A DNA stretch of 25,026 nt from positions 1-25,026 of the IMG/VR virus record IMGVR_UViG_3300025889_000887; one strand, 5' to 3'. How positions within the stretch are numbered: the stretch's first letter is position 1; each line of letters starts with the position of its first letter. Under the pieces are notes generated by a model that saw only the letters and a list, made by a program, of their open reading frames with translations, ran no database searches and was not told the DNA's origin. Below, piece by piece: positions 5,730 to 13,196 of the stretch. The position numbers and the translations under genes were made by a program. Source of the stretch: a virus.

Positions 5730-5942
5730 TTATCTCGGAAAATTTAGGAAAACTTGAGATATGATACCCCCAAGAGCAGCGGAGAATCCGGAGAGCATCA
5801 TCAATGTTTTCCAGCCACCTTGTGCTTCTGAGAGAGTAAGAAGAATTTTACGGGTGTCGTTTCGGACGGCACTCAGTTCTTTCTCAAGAAGAACAATCCT
5901 AGCCTCCATATTACCCAGTTCTCTGTCTGTGAAATTAGCCAT
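5730..5942 (-). CDS. Holin-like small membrane protein (XhlA-type architecture)
   Basis: A 70-residue protein with a charged N-terminal helix of coiled-coil character (about residues 8-40, NMEARIVLLEKELSAVRND). One hydrophobic segment follows (about residues 45-66, LMMLSGFSAALGGIISQVFL) and then a very short tail. A coiled coil followed by a single C-terminal membrane span is the layout of XhlA/haemolysin-type accessory holins and of some phage membrane anchors. It starts 2 bases after the oxygenase gene and ends 6 bases before the nozzle-like gene. No separate endolysin gene is seen beside it; the only lysozyme-like sequence in the window is at the end of the portal protein. Function as a holin is inference from topology. 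Confidence 0.6.
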   Translation of the reverse strand: MANFTDRELGNMEARIVLLEKELSAVRNDTRKILLTLSEAQGGWKTLMMLSGFSAALGGIISQVFLNFPR

Positions 5943-5944
5943 TT

Positions 5945-7093
5945 TTAGTCACTCTCTTTTATACCAAACCAACATACAAGAGTATAACGATTACCCGATG
6001 TAATCATGTTTACTCTGTGCATGACAGAGCCGCCTCTAAAAAGAATAAGTTCCCCCGTATGTCCTTTTATCCCTAAGCCAAGATGTGGAAATACAAGCTC
6101 ACCTCCTTCATAATCTTCATTAAGATAAACTATAGCAGCAAAATGCCTGTTAGGAAATTCTCGGTGCTCACCTAGATCATCATGTACTAACATCTCATCC
6201 CCTTTGCCCCACCTTACAGTATGTGGGTTTAATATTGATAGGTCGAGACCAGTTTTTTGCTGGGCGAATTGTAATAGTCTTTCCTCAATAACTCCTTTAT
6301 TTGCCTCAATGGTTGACCAGCACATCTTGTTTCTCCAAAGATCAGAAGTGTCATCAGGGTTTTCAGGAACCCAGTTTCTGATTAAATAAGAACATTCGTC
6401 TGTGTCTAAGAAAGATTCTTTAGAGTGAATATCGTTTTCTTCTAGTATCTTGAAACTATCGTTATAGTCTATAACAGGAGAACACCGGACAAACCTACGT
6501 GCTTTTTTAAAATAATCTTTTGTCCACTCATCTGCTTTGTCACGTTTGTCTGTCAATACTTCTCGTTCTTTGCGGACACTGTCCGGTTCACACATTTTAT
6601 AAATCTTGGTATTTTCGATGGTTCCGGTGTCCACAGGAATAACACGGGCAACGGGGGTACCTTTTGGGATTGTGGTTTTTCCTTTGTTAATGACCCTGAT
6701 TGTCAGAAACCATGGGTACGATAACCAATCAGTCTCGATGACTGCGGACATCGTTTGAATATCTGTGTTGTCTGTGTTAGGAACTGGCATAACCATGAGA
6801 TTAATGTTCTCATCAGTGCGCCAGACATATCCGGGGTCTAGAGTGAATGTCCCTATTCCGAAGTGGCTCTTTGCACCGTGACCTTCTAGGACCGTGAGAT
6901 TGTCTTTGTAGACACCCCCGTCCCATTCGACAGTGATTGATTCATTTAGTACCAAGTCCCATCCAAGGGTATTCGCACAAGTAAGGGGTGTGCATTTATA
7001 AGAGTGAGGGGAAAACCAATCTCTGGTTTTAGTGGCAGGGACTATATCAACTGATTTGACTGAATCAGATATCACCGGGTAAATCTTTATCAT
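5945..7093 (-). CDS. DUF6065-like domain fused to 2OG-Fe(II) oxygenase (prolyl 4-hydroxylase-like)
   Basis: A 382-residue two-part protein. The N-terminal ~180 residues resemble the DUF6065 family: a CTPLTCANTLGWDL segment, VEWDGG, a FGIGTFTL strand and an ETDWLSYPW segment. The C-terminal ~130 residues show the double-stranded beta-helix signature of 2-oxoglutarate/Fe(II) dioxygenases. The HxD iron ligands are H304 and D306 (MLVHDD), the distal iron ligand is H359 (GGSVMHRV) and the 2OG-binding Arg is R369 (GNRYTLVCWF). The stretch AAIVYLNEDYEGGELVFP is typical of prolyl 4-hydroxylase-like members. The start overlaps the methyltransferase stop as ATGA, so the two genes are translationally coupled. 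The substrate is unknown; the polyproline protein three genes upstream is an attractive candidate (inference). Confidence 0.85.
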   Translation of the reverse strand: MIKIYPVISDSVKSVDIVPATKTRDWFSPHSYKCTPLTCANTLGWDLVLNESITVEWDGGVYKDNLTVLEGHGAKSHFGIGTFTLDPGYVWRTDENINLMVMPVPNTDNTDIQTMSAVIETDWLSYPWFLTIRVINKGKTTIPKGTPVARVIPVDTGTIENTKIYKMCEPDSVRKEREVLTDKRDKADEWTKDYFKKARRFVRCSPVIDYNDSFKILEENDIHSKESFLDTDECSYLIRNWVPENPDDTSDLWRNKMCWSTIEANKGVIEERLLQFAQQKTGLDLSILNPHTVRWGKGDEMLVHDDLGEHREFPNRHFAAIVYLNEDYEGGELVFPHLGLGIKGHTGELILFRGGSVMHRVNMITSGNRYTLVCWFGIKESD

Positions 7094-7863
7094 ACTAGTT
7101 TTACAACGTATCTATTACCAAAACCCACAGGGTCTGATATGAGGGGGATATCTAAAAGAATTTCATATTCTGAGGGGTTTAAGGTGGTCTCAGGATTCGT
7201 ACCTTCAACAAGAGACTTTGATGCGATAAGAACTTCTTTTCCCTCGTCTCGTAAAAATCTACCCAGATCCAAATTCTTTTGAGCCCACCCACCATAAAAA
7301 ATACGGGACATGATATAGGTATCGTAAGACATATCAATAGTTTCTATGGAGGCCACCTCTGAAAAAAATCTTACGTCATAATTAAGTAAGACGAAATTAC
7401 AAGCTGCGATCACTTGGGATTCGTCCAGACCTTCGTAGACAGCATTAACACTCCCCAGTTTGTGTGTGATGATAGTTGAGGTCCCAGTCCCACAGCCTAT
7501 GTCGCATACCCTCTTATCTTGCCAGTAATTCGAGTAGTCCAGTGGGGAGGTTGACCCCCGGCCTTTTAACCAACTGTATTTAATAATTTCTCCGTTGGTC
7601 CATTCCTCATTAGGATCAGTAAAAGGAGGGGTCGGCTCCATGTCCTTATCCCAACCAATATAGGAAAAATCTCTGATAATGCTGGGAAGAATAGGTCTTC
7701 CCTGAACACACCTGATTCTATTATAGTTATTATAGAGTGCATCTAAAACAGACTCTCGATTAACGGTCTCTGTTTCAAAGTAAGAAGACACCAGTACTTT
7801 CCAATCAGGGAGAATAGTGTTCTCCATGACTACAGCTAGTTTTTCAGCGTATGATACGGGCAT
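7090..7863 (-). CDS. SAM-dependent methyltransferase
   Basis: A 257-residue protein with a Rossmann-type SAM-binding motif I at residues 119-130 (VCDIGCGTGTST). An acidic motif II region follows (VYEGLDES) and later a hydrophobic strand (VLIASKSL), as expected for class I methyltransferases. The ~115 residues before the fold show no recognised domain and may determine substrate choice. The start codon shares bases with the stop of the sulfotransferase-like gene (TAATG), and the end overlaps the oxygenase gene (ATGA). This places it in a coupled tailoring cassette. The target (protein, peptide, glycan or small molecule) cannot be read from sequence. There is no DNA-methylase motif such as DPPY or PCQ, so a DNA target is less likely. 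Confidence 0.8.
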   Translation of the reverse strand: MPVSYAEKLAVVMENTILPDWKVLVSSYFETETVNRESVLDALYNNYNRIRCVQGRPILPSIIRDFSYIGWDKDMEPTPPFTDPNEEWTNGEIIKYSWLKGRGSTSPLDYSNYWQDKRVCDIGCGTGTSTIITHKLGSVNAVYEGLDESQVIAACNFVLLNYDVRFFSEVASIETIDMSYDTYIMSRIFYGGWAQKNLDLGRFLRDEGKEVLIASKSLVEGTNPETTLNPSEYEILLDIPLISDPVGFGNRYVVKLV

Positions 7864-8504
7864 TACTCAAACACTCCTGTGTAATTAAGAGATTTTAATA
7901 TACTCTTGTCTACGTTGTTCTTTATGATATGCGACATGTCTGGTGTCATATTATACGACATACGTGGGTCCAGAGCCATTCTTTTTCTTTCAGGGGTAAA
8001 TTCAAAAGAACCAGAAACTTTTATAGGTAAGCCGTCTGGATCTATTCTGGTATCAAGATTCTTCAGTGTTGTGACGGGGTCACTGATAAGATCCCGGTAT
8101 TTTACAAATTTAATAACTGAGGAAAAAGGATCTGATAACCAGAAGTGGAAAAATCTGTTGTAGAGATCACAGATGTTTTCCAAACTGTATGTCTTATACT
8201 CTTCGACAATATCGGGTGTATCCCTGAGTGTCCGGCTTGTGGCGCATCTGATCTTGGTGTGTCCTTTTTCGTAATGGACTCTGTAGTGATCACCAAGTTC
8301 CCATGATTGAGAGATGATGCTGTCGATCCATTTGTACGGGGACTTATGAATAATTACCCTGTCCATGGATTTAATCTTGTCTGGGATGTCTGTCCTGACA
8401 AACTCGTGCTTGTACTCGGTATGCGTATTATCAGGATCAAGAATGGTTTGAAGATATGTGGTACCTGATCTATAAAGACCACAGACTAGGGTAGACCTTT
8501 CCAT
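7863..8504 (-). CDS. Sulfotransferase-like protein
   Basis: A 213-residue protein when started at the ATG at 8504. An earlier GTG at 8537 is possible but has a poorer context, while a GGGAT stretch lies a few bases before the ATG. A P-loop-like 5'-phosphosulfate binding motif is at residues 9-19 (GLYRSGTTYLQ). A second conserved element, HKSPYKWIDS (53-62), corresponds to the 3'-phosphate-binding region of PAPS-dependent sulfotransferases, and KYRDLISDP (135-143) matches another conserved strand. The family transfers sulfate from PAPS to hydroxyl or amine groups of sugars, tyrosine or small molecules. It is short for the family but both nucleotide-binding elements are present. It overlaps the Hint gene by 19 bases and is TAATG-coupled to the methyltransferase. 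Confidence 0.75.
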   Translation of the reverse strand: MERSTLVCGLYRSGTTYLQTILDPDNTHTEYKHEFVRTDIPDKIKSMDRVIIHKSPYKWIDSIISQSWELGDHYRVHYEKGHTKIRCATSRTLRDTPDIVEEYKTYSLENICDLYNRFFHFWLSDPFSSVIKFVKYRDLISDPVTTLKNLDTRIDPDGLPIKVSGSFEFTPERKRMALDPRMSYNMTPDMSHIIKNNVDKSILKSLNYTGVFE

Positions 8505-9160
8505 TGAATATCCCGAATGTCCTCTGTTCTGCACCACTGTGAAATCCCTACAAATCCATCTACTATATATCCACCACCAGATTTTAGTAACAGGCCATGG
8601 ATAATTTCTTCGGGGTCTTGTTCAGAATCCCATGTTGCCTCGGTCTTTTCCCAGCCATCGATGGTGGCGAATTCGTACTGTTTCCCGTATAAGAGAGGCA
8701 TCGTTGCTTTACCAATGTGTTCGTAGTCATAGGGGCTTTCACCGGGGAAGTTTTCCTCGGAAGATTCGGCATAGCCACGGTCTTCCAATAGCCACCAGTT
8801 ATAATTATAGACACCCCAGCGTTCAACCCCGTTGTCGTCTCTGATCCACATGTCATGGTCATCACTGAAGCGTAAGGGTTTACTCTGTCTTTTACGATGT
8901 AGGCTCATCATCCGTCGTCCTTTGGATACAGGGACAGGTTTGTTCTCCAGAACCTCAACAGGTTTGCCAGACATCGAGATTACGTAATCTCCGACTTCGA
9001 CTTCGTTGATCTGTTTCCATGAAAGATCACCCATCAATATTAGAGTATCGCTGGCAAAACAGGTCATTGCTGGTGGCGGGGGTGGAGGTGGAGGAGGTGG
9101 CGGGGGTGGTGGTGGTGGCGGTGGAGTTAGTAGTCCGCCTACTAGAATAATATCAGGCAT
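8486..9160 (-). CDS. Polyproline-Hint domain protein
   Basis: A 224-residue protein. Residues 1-12 are short and hydrophobic, residues 13-30 are 18 consecutive prolines, and residue 34 is a Cys that begins a Hint (Hedgehog/intein) domain. Visible Hint blocks are block A (C34-FASDTLILMGDLSWKQI, then VEVGDYVIS), a block B-like SDDHDMW (99-105, His102) and a terminal block resembling YIVDGFVGIS (198-207). Where an intein would end in His-Asn followed by Cys/Ser/Thr, the residues here are Gly-Ile-Ser. Full splicing therefore looks unlikely, while the N-terminal acyl shift or cleavage at Cys34 remains possible. The gene lies 3 bases after a collar-type fibre and overlaps the sulfotransferase-like gene. 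What the domain releases or attaches is unknown; a tail-associated role is inferred from position. Confidence 0.8.
   Translation of the reverse strand: MPDIILVGGLLTPPPPPPPPPPPPPPPPPPAMTCFASDTLILMGDLSWKQINEVEVGDYVISMSGKPVEVLENKPVPVSKGRRMMSLHRKRQSKPLRFSDDHDMWIRDDNGVERWGVYNYNWWLLEDRGYAESSEENFPGESPYDYEHIGKATMPLLYGKQYEFATIDGWEKTEATWDSEQDPEEIIHGLLLKSGGGYIVDGFVGISQWCRTEDIRDIQWKGLP
9071..9124. repeat. 18-codon polyproline tract
   Basis: Read on the minus strand these 54 bases are 18 consecutive Pro codons using CCA, CCG, CCC and CCT in mixture. The mixed codons mean the protein run is maintained without a simple single-trinucleotide expansion. Runs this long strongly stall ribosomes and need EF-P, so the tract may also slow translation of the Hint protein. 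Confidence 0.95.
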
Positions 9161-9163
9161 GGG

Positions 9164-10363
9164 TTATGTCTTAATGATATAATTGAGAATAATTGTTGGC
9201 TGTACGTTGTTATGCGCCTCGTCATTAGCCCCTACTAGTGGAATATATGCCGGATTTTGTGCAAGACCGGATGATGATACACCGCCCTGACCACCGTTGC
9301 TGGTTTGTCTCTGGTAAGTGGCTGCTGTTGGTAATTCCCCGGGTGTTAGTGTATGGGTCTCAGCGCCGCCAGATGCACCAAGGGTATCGCCATTAACACC
9401 ACCAGATTGACCTGTGAGACGATCAGCAGAAGTACCACCCATGTCATCCTGACCAGCAACAAGGCGACCTCTAAGATCGGGGACGTTGAATGTTGTTGCC
9501 CCGTCACCAACACCATACGTGGTCCCGATGGCTGCAAACAGGGTTGCATAGGTTGATCTGCTGATTGCCTGACCATAAGAAAGGAGCCAGCCAGAAGGGG
9601 CCGTTGATCCTGCATAAGGCATAACAGAACCCGCTGGAACGGAAGGAGTAAAGCTTAGGTTTCCGCTGCCGTCTGTTTGAAGGACATCTCCAGATGAACC
9701 ATCTGCGGCAGGGAGCGAAAAGGTAACATTGGCTGAAACAGAGGTTGGTGCCTGTAGGGCGATGTAGTTTGAACTATCAGCATCAGCAAATCTTACATCA
9801 CTCTGGGCGTTCATGGTGATATTGCTGGAGAATGTTGAAGAACCAGATACAGCAATGCCTCCTCCAATGGAGACAGTTCCCGAAATTGCCACAGGAACTT
9901 TAATGTCAATCAAAGAGGTTCCCACGGATACATTAACCACGTTTGATGTGGATCGGATGCCGGGTGTTTCGATGTCACGTACTGAGACGCCATCACATAC
10001 AACACCGATACTCTGGCCTTGTGGGATAATTTGTCCAGAGCCCGTGGCGGTCTTCATGTTAACGGTGAAAGAACCAGATGTGGAATTACGAACATCGTAG
10101 CCTTTTGAAAGGGCAGGGATAAGGACATTGACGTTGCTGGTCAAGGTTCCCGAGATATCTAGGAATGCACTACGTGCCTGATCAGAAGCACCGTTCGACT
10201 GCGTCAGAGTAACATCAACAGATGATACGGTGATCGTGGTGTAGGCTGCGATAGAATCATCGACAAGATCAATGACGTTATCGTTAAGGACAGTGCCCCA
10301 TGTGTTTTCGTTTTGACCGGGGATCTGTTTTTCTAGTCTGATTCTGGATGTGTATGATGACAT
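9164..10363 (-). CDS. Tail fibre with phage collar domain
   Basis: A 399-residue protein. The N-terminal segment (KQIPGQNENTWGTVLNDNV) is the usual start of a marine phage fibre family. The middle is beta-rich, Ser/Thr/Val-rich sequence (about 60-240). Residues ~244-308 form a phage tail collar domain: SVMPYAGSTAPSGWLL, then an FNVPDLRGR signature followed by a Gly-rich loop. The C-terminus (NVQPTIILNYIIKT) is the typical collar-family end. Such proteins form the distal receptor-binding fibre. It starts 4 bases after the adaptor gene and is followed within 3 bases by the polyproline-Hint gene, so the Hint cassette sits directly behind a fibre. Confidence 0.85.
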   Translation of the reverse strand: MSSYTSRIRLEKQIPGQNENTWGTVLNDNVIDLVDDSIAAYTTITVSSVDVTLTQSNGASDQARSAFLDISGTLTSNVNVLIPALSKGYDVRNSTSGSFTVNMKTATGSGQIIPQGQSIGVVCDGVSVRDIETPGIRSTSNVVNVSVGTSLIDIKVPVAISGTVSIGGGIAVSGSSTFSSNITMNAQSDVRFADADSSNYIALQAPTSVSANVTFSLPAADGSSGDVLQTDGSGNLSFTPSVPAGSVMPYAGSTAPSGWLLSYGQAISRSTYATLFAAIGTTYGVGDGATTFNVPDLRGRLVAGQDDMGGTSADRLTGQSGGVNGDTLGASGGAETHTLTPGELPTAATYQRQTSNGGQGGVSSSGLAQNPAYIPLVGANDEAHNNVQPTIILNYIIKT

Positions 10364-11582: not shown

Positions 11583-13196
11583 TTACGCCCCACTAAAATT
11601 ATTACGGGTACACTTTAGGGTGAATGAGAAGTTTCTGTCTGTTGCCGCAACCCCGGTTAGTTTGAATGCGAGAGCGTTACCCACGGAAACTATGTTGTTG
11701 CCTGTGGCTGTTGTAATTGCTTGTGTTGTACCGACTGCCAAGGCATTCAGACCTGTGACAGTGGTCTCTGTACCGGCGGCGCTGGTTGCAATAACAACAG
11801 AGGCCACGATTGCCCCGGCTGACAGTTTTCTTGAAAACGTATTTACTGTGAAAGTAAAGGGGGAATCGAGCACAAGAAATACTGGTGTGAATCCCGAATC
11901 AAGTTCGTCCCCGTATTGACCAGAGATTGCAAAAACTACATCTGTGTCAATTGAGGTGGCAACAATGTTTGTGGCAGAGAGAGCCACGGTATGGATATTT
12001 GTGGTTGCAGTAATGGTTGCAGCAATAATGTTCGTGGCCGACAGGTCTGGGGTATGAATGTTCGACGTTGCCGTTATTGTTGCTGCAATAAAGTTTGTCA
12101 CAGAGAGTAACGGCGTATGGATTGAGGTCGCTGTCACGCTACCTGCGGTGATGTTAGTCGCAGAGAGGGCGGGGGTATGTATCTTTGTTGTGGCCGTGAT
12201 TGTTGCCGCTAGGATATTTGTGGCGCTCAAAGCCGGAGTGTGAATGTTAGATGTGGCAGTGATCGTCGCAGCATTAAAGTTCGTCACAGATAAGGCTGGT
12301 GTGTGGATCGAGGTAGCTGTAACCGTACCTGCTACGATGTTTGTTGCTGATAATGCTGCTGTATGAATCTTTGTTGATGCAAAGATATTAGTTGCTGAGA
12401 CGTTTGTGACCGAGATCGCAGGAGTGTGGATCTTGGACGTTGCTGTGATTGTCGCAGCATTAAAGTTCGTCACAGATAGGGATGGCGTATGAATCGAGGT
12501 AGCTGTAACCGTACCTGCGATGATATTAGTTGCAGAGAGGACTGGGGTATGGATCTTTGTAGACGCAAAGATATTTGTGGCTGAGACGTTTGTGACCGAG
12601 ATCGCAGGGGTATGGATCTTGGACGTTGCTGTGATTGTCGCAGCGATGAAGTCCGTCACGGAGAGTGACGGGGTATGGATCGATGTGGCTGTGACAGTAC
12701 CTGCGATGATATTAGTCGCAGAGAGGACTGGGGTATGGATCTTTGTAGACGCAAAGATATTTGTGGCTGAGACATTTGTGACCGAGATTGCAGGAGTATG
12801 AATCTTGGACGTTGCAGTTACCGTGGCACCGGTGATATTTGTTGCTGAGACAGTCCCAGCAATACCAAGGTTACCAGAGGCATCTAGGTAGACAGATTTT
12901 CCGGCGGGATATCCACAGAAGACAACCTTGGTCCCTGCTGCCAGATTGACCACAGACCCACTGTTCGAGGAAGCCAAGATAGTGTCACGTGAGAGTACGG
13001 TGCCTGATGCGGTATAGGTACCGAGGCCCACTTCCCAGTCACCAGAGCCACTGTCTGAGATTACATAGTATGTGGTATTGGCATTACCAATTGCAGAAAA
13101 AGTATCAAAGCCCGTATACGAACCACTGAGCGTAACAGAGCCCGTTCCTGTGGTTGTCGTATCTTGCTTTACTCTGTCTTTGACAACGAGAGCCAT
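11583..13196 (-). CDS. Tail-fibre-like protein with 14 HTP repeats
   Basis: A 537-residue protein with three parts. Residues 1-~115 match a recurrent phage fibre N-terminal module (RVKQDTTTTGTGSVTLSG, GDWEVGLGTYTASG, LSRDTILASSNSGS). Residues 130-~416 consist of 14 copies of an IHTPxLSxTNxxAxTxTAT unit of about 20 residues. Within this, three 62-residue blocks (130-191, 192-253, 254-315) are nearly identical. Residues ~417-537 are a non-repetitive C-terminal domain (QYGDELDSGFTPVFLVLDS). The regular small-hydrophobic/Thr periodicity suggests a beta-helical or solenoid shaft. The layout of anchor, repetitive shaft and tip is that of a fibre or adhesin. The repeats should allow length changes by recombination. 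Confidence 0.75.
   Translation of the reverse strand: MALVVKDRVKQDTTTTGTGSVTLSGSYTGFDTFSAIGNANTTYYVISDSGSGDWEVGLGTYTASGTVLSRDTILASSNSGSVVNLAAGTKVVFCGYPAGKSVYLDASGNLGIAGTVSATNITGATVTATSKIHTPAISVTNVSATNIFASTKIHTPVLSATNIIAGTVTATSIHTPSLSVTDFIAATITATSKIHTPAISVTNVSATNIFASTKIHTPVLSATNIIAGTVTATSIHTPSLSVTNFNAATITATSKIHTPAISVTNVSATNIFASTKIHTAALSATNIVAGTVTATSIHTPALSVTNFNAATITATSNIHTPALSATNILAATITATTKIHTPALSATNITAGSVTATSIHTPLLSVTNFIAATITATSNIHTPDLSATNIIAATITATTNIHTVALSATNIVATSIDTDVVFAISGQYGDELDSGFTPVFLVLDSPFTFTVNTFSRKLSAGAIVASVVIATSAAGTETTVTGLNALAVGTTQAITTATGNNIVSVGNALAFKLTGVAATDRNFSFTLKCTRNNFSGA
11948..12809. repeat. Nested tandem repeats in fibre gene (186-bp higher order)
   Basis: The ~60-bp unit coding the HTP repeat fills this region. 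A higher-order period of exactly 186 bp is visible: GCTGAGACGTTTGTGACCGAG starts at 12394 and 12580, and a two-base variant starts at 12766. Three higher-order copies span about 12252-12809, followed by more diverged single units towards 11948. Confidence 0.9.

Follow-up and report, generated by a model that had tools for sequence, protein, structure and literature searches.

A four-gene phage cassette that may yield a modified, self-processed proline-rich protein

The DNA analyzed here, hereafter called the window, is a stretch of 25,026 nucleotides (IMG/VR record IMGVR_UViG_3300025889_000887), a fragment from a tailed, uncultured aquatic phage whose structural genes lie on the minus strand. 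Behind a tail collar fibre gene are four tightly packed minus-strand open reading frames (ORFs), which an initial interpretation made from the letters alone (the sequence-only reading) described as a tailoring cassette comprising polyproline-Hint, sulfotransferase, methyltransferase, and 2-oxoglutarate (2OG) oxygenase genes. All four ORFs are present, and their junctions had been described accurately: the Hint and sulfotransferase genes overlap by 19 nt, and the TAATG and ATGA junctions are both correct in the sequence. The ATG at 8504 is likely the true start of the sulfotransferase gene and the GTG at 8537 unused, because relatives carry stop codons upstream of this ATG. For all four genes, dN/dS is 0.07-0.29 where dS is unsaturated, indicating purifying selection. 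The G+C content is 0.40-0.415 in the sulfotransferase, methyltransferase, and oxygenase genes (5945-8504), 0.48 in the Hint gene, and mostly 0.43-0.53 in other genes. Stop-codon read-through from the collar gene into the Hint gene (the window reads TAA CCC ATG in frame) was considered and rejected, as in L009-L011 the ORF of the fibre preceding the Hint gene lies in another frame.

The product of the first cassette gene opens with MPDIILVGGLLT-P18-AMT, after which a Hint domain begins at Cys34, leaving an N-terminal peptide of 33 residues. All four CCN codons are mixed within the proline run, and among relatives its length ranges from 18 to 23 residues with changed codons. Thus, the run is kept as protein rather than as a DNA triplet repeat. 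Pfam recognizes the Hint domain weakly (Hom_end_hint, 4e-6) and over its first 39 residues alone. The call is firm by other measures: a profile search matches PI-SceI (3.8e-9), and an AlphaFold2 model of the protein (mean pLDDT of 67) matches BIL2 (6y75, 6.9e-8) and Hedgehog (1at0, 3.4e-4). Cys34 and His102 are invariant among Hint relatives down to ~30% identity, with S-D-D-H replacing TxxH. Judged by its modeled fold, N-terminal nucleophile, and block-B His, the window protein is a member of the Hint superfamily. Searches of cellular genomes for close homologues of the polyproline-Hint clade found none.

Like BIL and Hedgehog domains, this Hint domain has the fold, the catalytic Cys, and the block-B His, and cleavage at its N-terminal junction via a thioester is expected from the chemistry of the family. 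The sequence-only proposal that the domain could cut off the 33-residue peptide is consistent with this expectation. However, in the window clade the C-terminus reads VDGFVGIS and lacks the His-Asn of splicing inteins and A-type BIL domains, and therefore splicing or C-terminal cleavage is unlikely. The window domain further differs from BIL and Hedgehog in that its N-extein is a polyproline peptide and in being phage-borne and linked to tailoring enzymes.

Among the three enzymes, the Sulfotransfer_3 call scores 28.3 bits against a cut-off of 27, and its GLYRSGT motif is invariant; a comparison with the PDB gave no match. The methyltransferase carries a class I S-adenosylmethionine (SAM) motif and falls below every Pfam cut-off. 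Neither of these two enzymes was found in a search of cultured phages. The fourth gene joins a DUF6065 domain (117.6 bits against a cut-off of 26.6) to a 2OG-FeII_Oxy_3 domain that likewise scores above its cut-off and has a complete HxD...H and 2OG-binding R. Relatives of the 2OG domain include PiuC (4e-5), and its similarity to prolyl 3- and 4-hydroxylases is weak (E ~0.007). A fold search with DUF6065 returned a weak dUTPase-like match (E ~1e-3, TM to target ~0.6). Hence the earlier account of 18 prolines, Hint, sulfotransferase, and 2OG domains stands, its methyltransferase is recognizable by motif only, and it had overlooked DUF6065. In two relatives (L006:5378-6508 and L012:4684-5817), the oxygenases have diverged elsewhere and share an identical C-terminal stretch, which points to recombination within the gene.

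The four genes appear in unchanged order in every IMG/VR relative that spans the site, at identities down to 55%. They are absent en bloc from five contigs that are 97-98% identical in the neighboring virion gene, where the collar gene is followed by the 70-amino-acid gene that otherwise borders the cassette. A deletion scar is present in L132-L134, and in L132 (6884-7023) the first Hint codons (MPDIILVAG) are fused to the final codons of the oxygenase gene. Alignment searches of IMG/VR recovered the methyltransferase in 15 loci and the sulfotransferase in 13, every one of which has the cassette. The sequence-only reading had regarded independent occurrence of the genes as an argument against it, and for the subfamilies of these two enzymes the IMG/VR matches are confined to the cassette. 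On this genomic evidence, the four genes are one movable unit. The collar fibre itself swaps between two unrelated C-terminal types after residue 239 (seen in the window gene and in L004, L009, and L124), and because both types are seen whether the cassette is present or absent, the cassette has no tie to the fibre tip. Elsewhere among the structural genes, the protein encoded at 11583-13196 contains repeated ATSIHTPALSVTN-like units whose number differs among relatives.

Table 1. Positions of the cassette genes, their motifs, and flanking genes in the window
Feature	Position	Strand	Remarks
Tail collar fibre	9164..10363	-	PF07484 3.9e-24; neighbor, not specific partner; C-terminus of two types
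Polyproline-Hint protein	9160..8486	-	224 aa
18-proline tract, residues 13-30	9071..9124	-	Immediately N-terminal to Hint domain
Hint block A, catalytic Cys34 (CFAS)	9050..9061	-	Cys invariant in alignments A1, A4, A9; predicted cleavage just N-terminal
Hint block B-like S-D-D-H, residues 99-102	8855..8866	-	His102 invariant
C-terminal Hint strand YIVDGFVGIS	8540..8569	-	Without canonical His-Asn
Sulfotransfer_3 family enzyme	8504..7863	-	213 aa; PF13469 2.6e-6; start set from relatives
Sulfotransferase P-loop CGLYRSGT	8460-8483	-	
Putative class I SAM-dependent methyltransferase	7863..7090	-	257 aa; weak Pfam Methyltransf_31; METTL5 7.5e-4 (profile)
Methyltransferase SAM motif VCDIGCGTGTST	7474-7509	-	
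DUF6065 + 2OG-Fe(II) oxygenase fusion	7093..5945	-	382 aa; PF19541 8.2e-34, PF13640 4.3e-11
DUF6065 domain, residues 13-194	6512..7057	-	PF19541
2OG-Fe(II) domain, H304-D-D306, H359, R369	5966..6220	-	PF13640
Flanking 70-aa gene, cassette border	5730..5942	-	Adjoins collar gene directly in cassette-free relatives

Further evidence comes from environmental contigs of T4-like phages (L024-L091), which were chosen solely by homology to the oxygenase gene. There, DUF6065 and 2OG domains are encoded by separate genes in arrays of several 2OG genes, and directly upstream of the array lies a proline-rich tail-type protein with very long PPFF/FFPP repeats (e.g., L037:4892-5968 and L073:658-1962), which from our own reading of its sequence we label fibronectin-type-III-like (FN3-type). 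Such a protein is present in all 39 loci that have at least 4 kb of upstream sequence. Our measure of proline richness, an ORF with at least 40% Pro in 40 amino acids, is reached in 38 of these, with the PPxFF repeats of L089 just under the threshold. The same measure is reached at one of 70 bacterial control loci and at three of 41 other viral loci, two of which are the window cassette. Among phage loci with 2OG genes in which no DUF6065 was found, none of eight has a proline-rich neighbor. A search of cultured phages with the DUF6065 of L026 found none.

The window cassette is a lineage separate from these T4-like loci and has a different gene arrangement, with DUF6065 and 2OG fused. The proline-rich protein terminates in a Hint domain in L026/L028, L027, L047/L073, and L089/L090, and the C-termini of the FN3-type proteins alternate among Hint domains, Cys-rich tails, and plain ends. 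In large proteins with a C-terminal Hint domain, Pro/Phe or Pro/Gly stretches replace polyproline on its N-terminal side. Moreover, in the three DUF6065 loci where a sulfotransferase gene was found (L026, L027, and L028), it directly follows the Hint gene in each case, as in the window, although these enzymes belong to another family (Sulfotransfer_2). A proline-rich stretch, a Hint domain, and a 2OG enzyme thus recur, with or without a sulfotransferase, in unrelated phages, and this supports a proline-rich protein as the oxygenase substrate, in line with the earlier suggestion that prolines could be hydroxylated. Taken together, these gene associations suggest that the proline-rich tail proteins of some phages are chemically modified and process themselves.

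Remote loci were sought with a pattern of proline runs preceding Hint-like CFxx[G/D/N]T. One hit, L151, encodes MHIIRLSGGKQYV-P21-Hint with 55% identity, and the tail genes of this phage are different. Its Hint gene overlaps by 11 bp a methyltransferase gene whose product is 32-36% identical to that of the window; no sulfotransferase gene lies between them, and the contig ends at this point. Because of this remote case, polyproline-Hint plus methyltransferase is the most widely kept pair seen. In L150, genes for a PF11397 (GlcNAc) glycosyltransferase and a 2OG enzyme come after P11-Hint. The PF11397 family owes its name to the enzyme responsible for glycosylating hydroxyproline on Skp1.

A second Hint-plus-modifier trio occurs in Achromobacter phages JWF and 2-1 and in a Rhodospirillales prophage (L093, L094, L098, L099, and L288 (7515-10788)). 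Here, a tail protein ends in a NCNCDCNCNCSC-like Cys repeat and a Hint domain and is followed by an unidentified gene and then by a gene for a radical SAM protein. As in the window, a homologous Hint domain follows a low-complexity stretch and precedes a candidate modifying enzyme; the JWF/2-1 stretch is Cys-rich, its Hint domain is fused to a fibre, and its enzyme is radical SAM, whereas the window has a proline-rich stretch and a 2OG enzyme. A scan of GTDB with the Achromobacter-type Hint domain gave, apart from L287 and L288, chiefly Hint matches that were short, N-terminal, and of a different type. Hint/intein domains are also borne by collagen-repeat tail proteins of phage NCTB and Erwinia jumbo phages (L367:16159-17679; L368:5810-7243).

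The cassette also invites comparison with systems that have already been described. The virus PBCV-1 encodes a prolyl 4-hydroxylase (cited in PMC9301287); there, as in the window, a virus has its own prolyl-hydroxylase-type 2OG enzyme next to viral proteins rich in proline. The present case differs in involving tailed phages, DUF6065, a putative sulfotransferase and methyltransferase, and a predicted self-cleaving domain. The cassette resembles the biosynthesis of ribosomally synthesized and post-translationally modified peptides (RiPPs) in that a single operon combines a low-complexity precursor with tailoring enzymes and a predicted means of proteolytic release. However, release in the cassette would be by a C-terminal domain in cis, there is no known leader-binding element, and the likeness is one of gene order only, so that RiPP-like logic serves here as an analogy. 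A full-text search of openly licensed literature found no description of Hint domains together with viral prolyl-hydroxylase-type enzymes beside proline-rich proteins, in agreement with the earlier remark that no phage system with this combination had been described. Hint domains are known, as are virus-encoded prolyl hydroxylases adjacent to viral proteins of a proline-rich or collagen-like kind (PBCV-1, cited in PMC9301287), and it is their combination that appears to be new.

We propose that the cassette yields a single modified, self-processed proline-rich protein for which the Hint protein is the substrate, and to this reading we assign a probability of about one half. The substrate would begin with a brief N-terminal segment (MPDIILVGGLLT), continue as a rigid rod of polyproline, and end with the Hint domain. 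The DUF6065-2OG enzyme would hydroxylate prolines of the rod, with its DUF6065 half probably docking the substrate, and the sulfotransferase and methyltransferase would decorate the rod afterwards, perhaps on the new hydroxyls. The Hint domain would then turn the bond before Cys34 into a thioester, such that the modified peptide is freed or is passed to a nucleophile as by Hedgehog; splicing would not be expected, given the missing C-terminal His-Asn. The product probably serves to decorate the tail of the virion. We infer the substrate, the order of steps, the acceptor, and the virion location from the genes and their relatives.

Several observations weigh against this proposal. The assignment of the methyltransferase is weak. 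The 39 T4-like loci collapse to ~5 clusters at 70% DUF6065 identity, and consequently they count as many fewer than 39 independent cases of synteny, so that P values based on them exaggerate independence. It is uncertain that a single enzyme specificity is shared, because the window stretch is pure proline and the T4-like stretches are Pro/Phe repeats. DUF6065 is chromosomal in ~1/8 of the Alphaproteobacteria sampled (L378-L406), with no obvious partner and no proline-rich neighbor in the short stretches seen, and DUF6065-2OG pairs are widespread, indicating that the oxygenase family is not confined to settings like that of the window. Finally, L165 and L219 encode proline-rich Hint proteins with no enzyme nearby.

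The main competing explanation is that the three enzymes form a moron whose role is to alter sugars of the host or capsule, or else to produce a small molecule, with the Hint protein as an unrelated passenger that is passed on along with them. Clusters of 2OG, methylase, and related enzyme genes in cyanophages have been interpreted in terms of capsule decoration or secondary metabolism (PMC7824862), and the 2OG clusters of isolated cyanophages lack proline-rich neighbors. The lower G+C content of the three enzyme genes (0.40-0.415), relative to most structural genes and the Hint gene, would also fit. However, the cassette contains no glycosyltransferase or sugar-nucleotide gene, and Hint and methyltransferase genes stay paired in the remote phage L151. 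The explanation is weakened by the Hint genes that immediately precede sulfotransferase genes in unrelated phages and by the strong link between DUF6065-2OG and proline-rich proteins, and we consider it unlikely. It is distinctly improbable that the enzymes modify another virion protein, be it the collar fibre or some different protein of the tail, and that the Hint domain merely trims its own product, even if the cassette sits immediately behind the collar gene and an array in T4-like phages also has collagen-like fibres next to it. The collar translation has no proline-rich or collagen-like stretch, and the independence of its two C-termini from the cassette speaks against the earlier suggestion of this fibre as a specific substrate.

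Polyproline runs stall ribosomes in the absence of EF-P, and the cassette genes overlap. Yet in all relatives the run is placed immediately N-terminal to the Hint Cys, and in large Hint-ended proteins stretches of Pro/Phe or Pro/Gly stand in for it, making it very improbable that it acts mainly as a stalling element tuning the overlapping downstream genes. There is similarly little to recommend the view that the Hint domain is a decaying, inactive intein remnant. It could account for the missing C-terminal His-Asn and for Pfam seeing the first 39 residues alone, but not readily for Cys and block-B His being kept across ~30% identity, for purifying selection, or for long clade-specific conservation. 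A broader and rather unlikely idea, drawn by analogy with Hedgehog and cholesterol, can also be entertained. Perhaps there is a new class of phage autoprocessing, with the cassette of the window, the PPFF-Hint arrays of T4-like phages, and the Cys-repeat loci with Hint and radical SAM as three branches of it. In this class, low-complexity, proline-rich virion segments would be hydroxylated and sulfated by enzymes devoted to this task, and a C-terminal Hint domain would then activate them as a thioester for covalent attachment to another molecule, be it virion, glycan, or lipid.

Oxygenases of the 2OG type are abundant in aquatic viruses, and their viral use has been called cryptic (PMC9301287). 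The loci described here give DUF6065-linked 2OG enzymes a concrete candidate substrate and DUF6065 a possible role, and they point to a recurrent link in phage tails between Hint self-processing and protein-modifying enzymes. If our proposal is true, some phages would build hydroxylated, sulfated, proline-rich tail parts.

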